From assembly GCA_030698395.1 (NCBI GenBank), contig JAUYKW010000009.1, positions 1 to 45,027 of the forward strand: a DNA stretch of 45,027 bases. Direction: 5' to 3'. The position numbers and the translations under genes were made by a program. Source of the stretch: a bacterium (GTDB taxonomy: Bacteria > Patescibacteriota > Patescibacteriia > UBA9570). The first letter of the stretch is position 1; every line of letters begins with the position of its first letter. The notes beneath the pieces are model-generated. The model had not been told where the DNA came from. It saw nothing but the letters and a program-made list of their open reading frames with translations, and made no database searches. Shown piece by piece: positions 1,454 through 39,963 of this stretch.

Positions 1454-1545
1454 TGGCGGAGAGGGAGGGATTCGAACCCTCGAAACCTTTGCAGGCTTAC
1501 TGCATTTCGAGTGCAGCGCATTCAACCGAGCTCTGCCACCTCTCC
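1454..1545 (-). tRNA. tRNA-Ser(CGA)
   Basis: On the minus strand a 7-bp acceptor stem (GGAGAGG with CCTCTCC) encloses a class II tRNA with a long variable arm. The anticodon stem CTGCA/TGCAG carries loop CTCGAAA, giving anticodon CGA. The T-arm has the GGTTCGAATCC motif. The discriminator G and CCA are encoded (1454-1457). The length of 92 nt fits tRNA-Ser. Confidence 0.93.
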
Positions 1546-2748: not shown

Positions 2749-3312
2749 TTATTTATTTAGTGACCAGAAAAATTCTATATCGGCATCAACATCACCGTAT
2801 TTTAGGATGATGGCAAGCTCTTCTATAAAAGCTAGTGTAAGTAACAGGATAACAATCGTTGCCACAACTTCAATATTCATGAAAAATCCAAGTACAACCA
2901 CAAAATAAATTCCTGCTGATCCAGTTTTAAATAATCTAGTGTGCATGAATTTTAATTTTTTCAGTTTAACTAGAGAAACTGTCATTGTAATAGCAAAAGA
3001 TGTAGCCAATGCAATCAACGGCGCTAAGATAGCAGTAGTTAAACCTGGATGCATTAAATAGATAAAAAATATTGATGCTAAATGAAAGCTAGTATCTGCC
3101 AACGAATCAAGTTCTTTACCAAATTGTGTTACTTGCTTCAGCATACGAGCTACGATGCCATCAACAAAGTCGGTAATACTTACGAGAGCATAAACAATGA
3201 AGAATGCAATTATCTGATCACTTAAAAATAATGCAAATAAAATAGGTAAGAAAATAATCCTAGATAAAGACAGGGTATTTGTAATTGTGAAATATTTTTT
3301 CATTGCCACCAT
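2749..3312 (-). CDS. CDP-alcohol phosphatidyltransferase family protein
   Basis: This 187-aa polytopic membrane enzyme of the PgsA class moves a phosphatidyl group from CDP-diacylglycerol to an alcohol. The family signature DG-x2-AR-x8-G-x3-D-x3-D is complete: D51, G52, A55, R56, G65, D69 and D73, preceded by D48. Five to six hydrophobic segments follow. The most likely substrate is glycerol-3-phosphate, but inositol or another alcohol cannot be excluded. Two starts are possible, ATG at 3312 or at 3303 (MKKYFTITN), and the second fits homologous N-termini better. The downstream MFS gene begins 2 bp after its stop. Confidence 0.85.
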   Translation of the reverse strand: MVAMKKYFTITNTLSLSRIIFLPILFALFLSDQIIAFFIVYALVSITDFVDGIVARMLKQVTQFGKELDSLADTSFHLASIFFIYLMHPGLTTAILAPLIALATSFAITMTVSLVKLKKLKFMHTRLFKTGSAGIYFVVVLGFFMNIEVVATIVILLLTLAFIEELAIILKYGDVDADIEFFWSLNK

Positions 3313-3393
3313 AAGTATGTTTACAGTGTACCGTACTATCTGAGCTTCGAGTAGAGAGCATTACAAATAATAATTTGATTATGAGGGGGGAAA

Positions 3394-3451
3394 CCGGTCG
3401 CTGCTGGTACGAATACTCCCGTGGGAATATCGTACACTTTGCAGCGACCGG
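3394..3451. repeat. Long imperfect hairpin behind the GC-rich 76-aa gene
   Basis: Perfect 11-bp arms CCGGTCGCTGC (3394-3404) and GCAGCGACCGG (3441-3451) enclose a second stem GTACGA/TCGTAC (3407-3412 with 3430-3435). That stem continues with a bulged A, two pairs, a mismatch and TCCC/GGGA. The fold therefore has an internal loop and extrahelical bases. It begins 36 nt past the stop of the 76-aa gene. The minus strand has no T-run after it, so it is a poor terminator. Confidence 0.75.
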
Positions 3452-3487
3452 CTGTGAACGCAGGAACAGATCAGGGCACGCGTCAGA

Positions 3488-3718
3488 TCACGAAGGCTTG
3501 TGAGCCAGGTGGTTGGGGTGTTCGGTGATGATGGCGCGGTACTTCTCGGTGCGCACGGACAGCGTCGGGCCACCTTCATACATCACGGCGCTCACCTCGA
3601 TCCAGTTGTCGGCGATTGGCGTTTCGGCCAGCGCGAACTCGTCGGCTTGATAGCCAGCGCTGAGCGCGTATGCGCGCACTGCCTGACGGGCATCTCTGCG
3701 GGGTGCGATGTTGGGCAT
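3488..3718 (-). CDS. Foreign-looking 76-aa protein, unknown function
   Basis: This is a soluble 76-aa protein beginning MPNIAPRRDARQAVRAYAL and ending HPNHLAHKPS. The start at 3718 is chosen because AGGAG lies about 13-17 bases upstream on the minus strand. The reading frame extends further upstream, but that part is AT-rich and has no such signal. Codons end mostly in G or C (GCC, CTG, ATC, CGC), in sharp contrast with all neighbours, which points to recent transfer. No signal peptide, membrane helix or known motif is visible. The C-terminal half (WIEVSAVMYEGGPTLSVRTEKY) alternates like beta strands. A long hairpin lies just downstream. I do not recognise the family. Confidence 0.65.
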   Translation of the reverse strand: MPNIAPRRDARQAVRAYALSAGYQADEFALAETPIADNWIEVSAVMYEGGPTLSVRTEKYRAIITEHPNHLAHKPS

Positions 3719-3804
3719 CTTTCTTCGTCTCCTAGTAAAGGATTGTGCGGATGGGGTGGGGTCTTCTTGCTTACAAAGAAACTTAGTGAGACCAAGTTTC
3801 AGGG

Positions 3805-3847
3805 AAAACAAAAAGCTTCTTACCCTATAAAAAATCGGATAAGAAGC
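3805..3847 (-). terminator. Rho-independent terminator of the 3811-4044 RNA
   Basis: Read on the minus strand, GCTTCTTATCC and GGGTAAGAAGC (3837-3847 with 3815-3825, one mismatch) form an 11-bp stem with an 11-nt loop, followed by TTTTTGTTTT. A second 7-bp hairpin (GAAACTT/AAGTTTC, 3778-3800) lies just beyond it. Confidence 0.75.
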
Positions 3848-4044
3848 CTGTTGTCTTTGTACAAGATTCCCCGTCTTAACGGAGCTTATCTATCCCTGTT
3901 CGTTCAGTTCTACAGAGTAGAAATGTCCGGACCGATTTTGGGTTTGGATTTACCACCTTATCTATAAAAGACAGGCTGGCGGAGCATCGTAGGGCCAATT
4001 CCCTCAACTCACTCTTGATATGTGATGTAAATAAAAAGAACAAC
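3811..4044 (-). ncRNA. Candidate ~235-nt structured non-coding RNA
   Basis: This minus-strand interval lies between a strong promoter (4051-4079) and a clear intrinsic terminator (3805-3847). It contains no convincing reading frame: a 67-codon frame exists on this strand but runs through the predicted stems. Local stems include CTCCGT-TAAG-ACGGGG (3869-3884) and CTCTGT/ACAGGG (3894-3899 with 3912-3917). I looked for signatures of tmRNA (tRNA-like ends, CCA), RNase P (GAGGAAAGTC, ACAGAA) and the SRP tip (GGAA-capped CAGG/AGCA) and found none. A 6S-type regulator is possible by size. The transcript ends are inferred from promoter and terminator. Confidence 0.5.
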
Positions 4045-4050
4045 ATGAAT

Positions 4051-4079
4051 ATTCTAACCGTTATGTCAGCGGGTGTCAA
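4051..4079 (-). promoter_or_regulatory. Strong promoter of the candidate non-coding RNA
   Basis: On the minus strand, a perfect TTGACA (4074-4079) is followed by 17 bp and TAGAAT (4051-4056). The start site should fall near 4044. No start codon lies close behind it, unlike the protein-gene promoters of this genome. Confidence 0.75.
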
Positions 4080-19408: not shown

Positions 19409-20329
19409 ATGTTGATATTTATTCACGGTACAGATACTTTTCGCACTCATGAGAGAGCAGTTGTTTTACGTGAAGGTTTTAAAAAGAAATATGATACAAC
19501 AGGTGCTAATGTTCAAGTTCTGGATGCTACAAGTGCTAAAGTTGCTGATATTCGTTCTAATCTATTGATGAGAGGTTTATTTACTAGTAGGCGCTTTTTA
19601 ATTTTAAAAAATATTTTCTCTCTCAGCTCTGATGTTAGTGATGTTTTCATAGACGCAACAAAAAAAATTGATGAAGAAGCAATTGTGGTATGTACAATGG
19701 ATAGTTTACCAAAACAAGATTCAGAATTAAAAGCAGTGTTGTTAGCAGCGGACTTGGTGGAAGAATATAATGAATTATCTGATCGTGAAATAATGAATTG
19801 GGTTAAGCAAAGAGTTACTTTAGGGAAGTGTACAATAACTACTGATGCATTAGCTTATATTGTTCAGGCAGTGGGTAATGATCTTTGGACATTGCATCAA
19901 GCAGTTGAACAGCTTACACATTATACGACACATATTACACTAGAGAATGTTTCGTTATTTGTGTCATCACCAATTAATGATAATATTTTTCATTTTACCG
20001 ACGCTATATCTGAAAAAAATACTGCACGAGCTTTAGAGTTGTTGCACGATCAGATATCTGCGGGTGCAAATGAATTTTATTTACTTAGCATGATTGCTCG
20101 ACAATTGAGTATTCTAATTGAAATTAAAGAAACTGATGGTAAGGGTTCTAGTTTGCATCCATATGTAATAAAAAAATCTAGAAAACATGCTCAGCGTTTT
20201 AATTTAGATCAATTAGTTGATTTACACGAGCAAATATTGAATATTGATTACTTATTAAAATCAAGCAAGCAGAGTTCGTCTCTGCTGCTAGATAAGTTTG
20301 TAGTTGAAGCTACTCAAGAGGTAACTTGA
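19409..20329 (+). CDS. holA: DNA polymerase III subunit delta
   Basis: This 306-aa clamp-loader delta subunit opens the sliding clamp. Typical features: MLIFIHGTDTFRTHE at the start (the YGxDxFL region), SRRFLILKNI, the domain-2 segment NDLWTLHQAVEQL, and the C-terminal collar helices with LLSMIARQLSILIEIK and LHPYVIKKSRKHAQRF. As expected for delta, the P-loop is absent. It lies 26 bp behind polA, convergent with rpsT with a gap of only 9 bp. Confidence 0.88.
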   Translation: MLIFIHGTDTFRTHERAVVLREGFKKKYDTTGANVQVLDATSAKVADIRSNLLMRGLFTSRRFLILKNIFSLSSDVSDVFIDATKKIDEEAIVVCTMDSLPKQDSELKAVLLAADLVEEYNELSDREIMNWVKQRVTLGKCTITTDALAYIVQAVGNDLWTLHQAVEQLTHYTTHITLENVSLFVSSPINDNIFHFTDAISEKNTARALELLHDQISAGANEFYLLSMIARQLSILIEIKETDGKGSSLHPYVIKKSRKHAQRFNLDQLVDLHEQILNIDYLLKSSKQSSSLLLDKFVVEATQEVT

Positions 20330-39583: not shown

Positions 39584-39963
39584 CACTAATAATTATCAGT
39601 AGTGTGGTAATTTGCATAGCTGTCTCAATGATGATGCTGTATTTTTGGATGTTAATTTCTGCAAGTGCCAATGATAAAATGCGAAGTCGGGTTAAGCATA
39701 TTCATAAAATGATTTTAGTAGTATCTACTGGGTTAATATTTCTGTTGGTGGCAGGGTTTATAGAAAATCTTTGGTATTCAGTTGTTGGAGTTTTGATATC
39801 TATTACTGGAATATCTTCGTATTTTAATCAGTTACGATCTTGGTTTGCAGAAACAGAGTATGTAGAGATGAAGAGTAGCTTTTTATCTATTATTATTTGG
39901 CTTTTGTGGCTAGGATTATTAGGTTTATTAATAACTCATTTTATTTATATATGGATATACTAA
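39580..39963 (+). CDS. Small membrane protein, unknown
   Basis: A 127-aa hydrophobic protein with four helices: about residues 2-25, 43-62, 66-82 and 103-125. A short basic loop lies between the first two (NDKMRSRVKHIHK). The ATG at 39580 overlaps the stop of the protease gene (ATGA), a coupling start; an in-frame TTG lies six bases earlier. No family is recognised. It overlaps the MgtC-like gene by 13 bp. Confidence 0.7.
   Translation: MTLIIISSVVICIAVSMMMLYFWMLISASANDKMRSRVKHIHKMILVVSTGLIFLLVAGFIENLWYSVVGVLISITGISSYFNQLRSWFAETEYVEMKSSFLSIIIWLLWLGLLGLLITHFIYIWIY

Follow-up and report, generated by a model that had tools for sequence, protein, structure and literature searches.

The window analysed here is a 45,027-nucleotide stretch of a genome assembled into 31 contigs (G000; 1.32 Mb, 36.2% GC). 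Over positions 3401-3700 its GC content is 0.61, against 0.362 genome-wide. The segment lies among genes for a pgsA-like enzyme, an MFS transporter and rRNA, and it holds an ORF for a 76-aa protein (3488-3718, minus strand, stop codon included). The GC content at the three codon positions of this ORF is 0.64/0.49/0.78, the last value comparing with a GC3 of 0.21-0.39 in the native genes checked within the window. An earlier sequence-only reading had called the gene GC-rich and had pointed out the Shine-Dalgarno (SD) sequence AGGAG, which is indeed present on the minus strand at 3729-3733, 10 nt before the ATG. The anti-SD sequence CCTCC is kept at the 3' end of the 16S rRNA of this genome.

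That reading did not include the upstream half of the unit. A sigma-70-type promoter (TTGACA-N17-TAGAAT, 4051-4079, minus strand), as read from the sequence, is followed by a SAM-I riboswitch aptamer (3883-4024, minus strand; Rfam RF00162, 49.6 bits with the gathering cut-off at 44.4), which is the sole copy in the genome. The expression platform contains an intrinsic terminator (3806-3855, minus strand; MFE -21.9, z -7.2) whose stem is common to G000, G002 and G005, as seen in an alignment of the leader with those of four relatives (five leaders). A competing antiterminator is predicted, in which the 5' arm of this terminator would pair with the 3' strand of stem P1 of the aptamer (GGAUAGAUAAGC). 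Riboswitch architecture of this kind predicts repression at high SAM, through a folded aptamer and a formed terminator, and expression at low SAM, when the terminator 5' arm would pair with the P1 strand instead. Since promoter, SAM-I riboswitch and terminator all lie upstream, we infer a SAM-repressible transcription unit with the 76-aa ORF as its coding part.

The unit thus runs, 5' to 3', from promoter through SAM-I riboswitch, terminator, Shine-Dalgarno and 76-aa ORF to a long imperfect hairpin (3394-3451, minus strand). This 58-nt element, with 11-bp perfect arms CCGGTCGCTGC/GCAGCGACCGG and bulged bases, begins about 36 nt past the stop codon, much as the sequence-only reading had described it, and folds with an MFE of -40.5 kcal/mol (z -9.0, 0/200 shuffles as good). 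The hairpin is followed by a run of six C residues (3385-3390, minus strand) and no U-run, and AT-rich sequence resumes at this point. A search for the hairpin arms in other genomes, as that reading had proposed, located the pattern GGTCGCTG-N16..46-CAGCGACC in only 2 of 57 genomes (G000 and one other, G005), once in each, and both copies come after small ORFs under a SAM riboswitch. The reversed control of the pattern gave no matches in the 57 genomes.

Profile and structure searches with the 76-aa protein, also suggested earlier, returned nothing. Pfam, NCBIfam, PHROGs and PDB sequences held no match. No homologue was detected among the 57 relatives, or in phages, plasmids, viral contigs and genome contigs in searches whose reach is limited to close relatives. 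A single-sequence structure model consists of a helix and four strands (pLDDT 68) and matched no PDB fold at E<=0.001.

Downstream of the hairpin lie a CDP-alcohol phosphatidyltransferase resembling pgsA (2749-3312, minus strand; PF01066, 2.9e-21), the MFS gene and tRNA-Ser(CGA) (1454-1545, minus strand). A tyrosine recombinase (401-1213) adjoins this tRNA, 2.2 kb from the 76-aa unit. Its best family is the integron integrase TIGR02249, at 222.1 bits against a cut-off of 265 and with the match split into two pieces. G001, a genome of the same family, has a different recombinase-like ORF beside the same tRNA. No direct or terminal repeats longer than 7 bp flank the GC-rich segment, and a single 7-bp direct repeat, considered as a target-site duplication, was taken as chance.

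A conserved slot with differing occupants

The slot beside tRNA-Ser(CGA) is conserved in three genera (G000, G001 and G002), and the tRNA serves as its landmark in all of them. In G001, it comprises a SAM riboswitch, a GC-rich methyltransferase of 290 aa, a homocysteine S-methyltransferase of native composition, pgsA and tRNA-Ser(CGA); the pgsA orthologue there is 39% identical and at the equivalent place, making this gene a conserved downstream neighbour. In G002, a SAM riboswitch is followed by AGGAGG, a GC-rich ORF of 80 aa, a hairpin and the tRNA. In G005, which belongs to another family, a SAM riboswitch with a like terminator precedes AGGAGG, an unrelated ORF of 64 aa and a hairpin that has the same arms as here, GGTCGCTG...CAGCGACC. 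Homology was not detected between the slot occupants of G000, G001 and G002. The 76-aa gene was compared with the 80- and 64-aa occupants, and homology was not supported (local p 0.16 and 0.47); an alignment with the 80-aa occupant made by eye failed under shuffling. The sequence-only reading had envisaged homologues of the same gene at the same place with native composition in related genomes; the place holds other GC-rich genes instead.

In G007, too, a GC-rich gene, which reads as MetF-like, comes first after the SAM riboswitch. One SAM riboswitch of G005 precedes a metK of ordinary composition, so the rule that a GC-rich gene follows the switch is not universal. Because the same switch in relatives precedes metK, a MetF-like gene or a methyltransferase with a homocysteine methyltransferase, we suggest that the 76-aa gene acts in methionine or SAM shortage.

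At L023:1438-3297 and L040:494-1354, a SAM riboswitch heads an operon in which a GC-rich methyltransferase is paired with a homocysteine S-methyltransferase. Only G001 and G045 share this operon, and it is GC-rich in the first gene only. We take the pair to be possibly part of an S-methylmethionine cycle, as with the plant enzymes. Strong matches to the G001 methyltransferase occur only in G001 and G045 among 286 genomes of the class. G001 also carries an IS-like repeat, with ends CACCGTTCCATATCTGGCGCG and GACCGTTTCATTTTGGGCGCG, that breaks many of its contigs (contig ends L144, L147, L150, L151, L152, L155, L162). The 200-bp flanks are 53-68% GC in 7 of its 9 copies, in a genome of 40% GC, and the repeat thus resides mostly in GC-rich DNA.

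GC-rich solo genes of the genome

The GC3 values of ORFs in G000 form a sharply skewed distribution whose high tail stands apart and contains about 28 genes, mostly single, which were hand-picked using a simple SD-aware ORF caller. Their products include an aminotransferase, a lysine-decarboxylase-like protein, a Csx3-like domain, a receiver domain and many proteins without assignment. An SD precedes 26 of the 28 (93%), against 111 of 279 native genes with free upstream sequence (40%), an enrichment that is partly circular because starts were chosen with the SD in mind. Over all native genes, a start picker that favours SDs gives a 4-nt match in about 20%. The earlier statement that native genes have no such site was therefore too strong.

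Promoter, C-run and stop usage played no part in selecting the class. TTGAC lies upstream of 19/28 GC-rich genes, compared with 55/279 of the native genes whose upstream sequence is free. The class also shares a 3' hairpin, behind which C-runs take the place of U-runs. In the 110 nt that follow the stop codon, CCCC was found for 14/28 GC-rich versus 64/885 native genes, and TTTTT for 1/28 versus 369/885. AGGAGG follows the stop within 100 nt in 9/28 GC-rich genes and in 23/885 native genes. The resulting AGGAGG-ORF-AGGAGG layout, present in these nine genes of G000 and also in L192 at about 1884, might mark sites of ORF exchange.

Several members of the class, or genes resembling them, have features of their own. 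A leader motif is common to C31:19765 and C31:39377 (G000:C31, about 19640-19760 and about 39750-39870) and comprises a pair of small stem-loops, GTTCCTAYCC..GGAAC and CTCYC..CCCC..GAG, whose loops are rich in C; the motif could be an undescribed leader RNA. The 191-aa GC-rich protein encoded at L071:10881-11456 has a Csx3-like C-terminal half (PF09620, 3.7e-9), and its N-terminal half looks similar. A Magasanikbacteria genome with a median GC3 of 0.31 contains an SD-led GC-rich gene of 223 aa (L195:1890-2561, GC3 0.79), which may mean that the class reaches beyond the order of G000.

We also considered that the coding regions might be selected for structure, as a kind of armoured mRNA, since folding is stronger in the GC-rich genes than in the native set. 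A phage control of 63% GC folds as much (z -1.68), and the idea was dropped. Coding-region folding no stronger than in this ordinary GC-rich control offers no cause for the lasting GC-richness of these genes in a 36%-GC genome. For two further GC-rich genes, viral scans came back empty and a phage origin was discarded.

Residence and origin of the occupants

The positions of GC-rich genes recur in relatives. Among the two-sided GC-rich slots of G000, 3 of 6 are re-filled by a GC-rich gene in a relative (p about 3e-6) and 3 of 6 are not, as sampled in roughly a quarter genome from each of three relatives; several one-sided cases add to the re-filled slots. By comparison, none of 338 adjacent native gene pairs (neighbouring orthologues in G001, G003 or G004) has an intervening GC-rich SD gene in the relative. 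At two positions the occupants are homologous. C31:19765 has a syntenic counterpart in G001; both are GC-rich and they share 30% identity, with neighbours at 65-78%, and C3:53543 is homologous with the G003 occupant (z 8.6), both again GC-rich. In Kerfeldbacterium L192, the slot of C31:19765 contains a small GC-rich ORF with a TAG stop and then AGGAGG.

The ratio of TAG to TGA stops is 15:10 in the GC-rich class and 194:112 in native genes (p 0.83), as against 2:27 in the 63%-GC control, a single phage. This usage is suggestive of a long residence of the class. Since slot positions recur in sister genera and stop usage is recipient-like, a simple recent capture is disfavoured. The description of the gene as foreign, made by the sequence-only reading, holds for composition and is doubtful as to recent foreignness, given the conserved positions, two of them homologous, and the recipient stop preference.

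The genome comparisons demonstrate, at the level of sequence, the architecture of the slot, its conservation, its differing occupants and the statistics of the GC-rich class. Our preferred reading, to which we give about an even chance, is that the 76-aa ORF is an occupant of a pre-wired accessory slot, drawn from a pool of GC-rich solo genes private to this lineage. The ends would be constant (the SAM-I riboswitch leader with its terminator, the Shine-Dalgarno and the 3' hairpin) and the ORF between them would vary, occupants being swapped by recombination through these fixed regulatory ends. The present occupant would be a long-term resident, not a fresh capture from an unrelated donor.

Sporadic horizontal transfer, in which one unameliorated GC-rich bacterial gene came to lie behind a native SAM riboswitch, strikes us as unlikely. 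Codon-position GC resembles that of a genome of 60-65% GC, the gene is without homologue in the relatives, and single-gene transfers into Patescibacteria are documented in passages of PMC12455944. However, sister genera carry GC-rich genes in the same slots, in its stop usage the class matches the recipient rather than a GC-rich genome, and G005 has the same end hairpin around an unrelated ORF. Another rival is a vertically inherited resident that evolves very fast, its GC-rich codons maintained by selection or by a mutational regime acting locally, without any exchange. The homologous and still GC-rich pairs of C31:19765 with G001 and of C3:53543 with G003, and a TAG preference like that of native genes, speak for such a resident, but we consider it likewise unlikely: the SAM slot has occupants of different size and family (76 aa; a methyltransferase of 290 aa together with a second enzyme; 80 aa), changes beyond the reach of divergence alone, which leaves the SAM slot unexplained. 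Moreover, no selective cause was found, and coding structure is ordinary for the GC content.

Two further explanations are, in our estimate, highly improbable. The sequence-only reading had seen in one small gene and an imperfect palindrome the plan of a mobile cassette, and the part of this proposal that survives is that the ORF differs among relatives while the regulatory ends persist. Insertion of an integron cassette (ORF plus attC) by an integron integrase, perhaps the recombinase at 401-1213, would account for the single small ORF with its palindrome and for an integron-integrase-like enzyme 2.2 kb off. Against it, the pair RYYYAAC/GTTRRRY occurs in 0 of 28 units, that of the window included (the same reading had already noted the absence of R boxes here), the recombinase falls under its cut-off with a split match and sits beside tRNA-Ser, promoter and riboswitch belong to the unit itself, and no arrays were seen. 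The other explanation, with just as slim a chance, is a chimeric assembly joining another organism's GC-rich DNA into the contig. The genome is a draft from an uncultured lineage and the GC steps are sharp, but two chimeric joins would be needed in 400 bp, promoter, riboswitch, terminator and SD are all in register with the ORF, and independently assembled relatives have the same design.

A broader form of the accessory-slot reading is possible, though we regard it as rather unlikely. A Patescibacteria family (Kerfeldbacteria/Magasanikbacteria-like) would circulate private GC-rich solo genes through fixed chromosomal slots furnished with promoters, end hairpins and leaders of sensory RNA, their codon composition held apart from that of the genome over genus-level divergence, as a cassette system without attC or integron integrase. 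If the accessory-slot account is right, some streamlined symbiont-like genomes set aside an RNA-wired site for accessory genes, and it would be wrong simply to count GC-rich genes in such slots as fresh foreign DNA. The slots would then provide a testable system for single-gene swapping without integrons and for asking what holds some genes, in several genera, at a GC content about 25 points above that of the genome as a whole. The SAM-riboswitch regulon would likewise be widened to a small uncharacterised protein in uncultured bacteria.

Comparison with known systems

Individually transferred genes and islands have been described in streamlined Patescibacteria genomes, in passages of Gios et al. 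(2025, PMC12455944); those passages do not describe a class of GC-rich solo genes with common regulatory ends or conserved slots. A search of the open-access literature found nothing similar to such a slot system. The unit resembles phage morons in being a single gene with its own promoter, a 3' hairpin (here without a U-run) and a composition unlike that of its neighbours. Unlike morons, it is chromosomal, has a structured regulatory leader and occupies fixed slots common to several genera; no prophage was found around the 76-aa gene, nor any match in phages, viral contigs or PHROGs. With integron gene cassettes it shares an exchangeable small ORF, a palindrome behind it and expression from a constant upstream region, whereas attC R boxes, a passing integron integrase and an array are absent. 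It is like SAM-I (S-box) riboswitch operons (RF00162) in its aptamer above the gathering score and its terminator/antiterminator platform, and the switches of relatives control metK and methionine genes. It differs from these operons in that the gene downstream is a GC-rich 76-aa ORF without known homologue and the occupant varies among sister genera.
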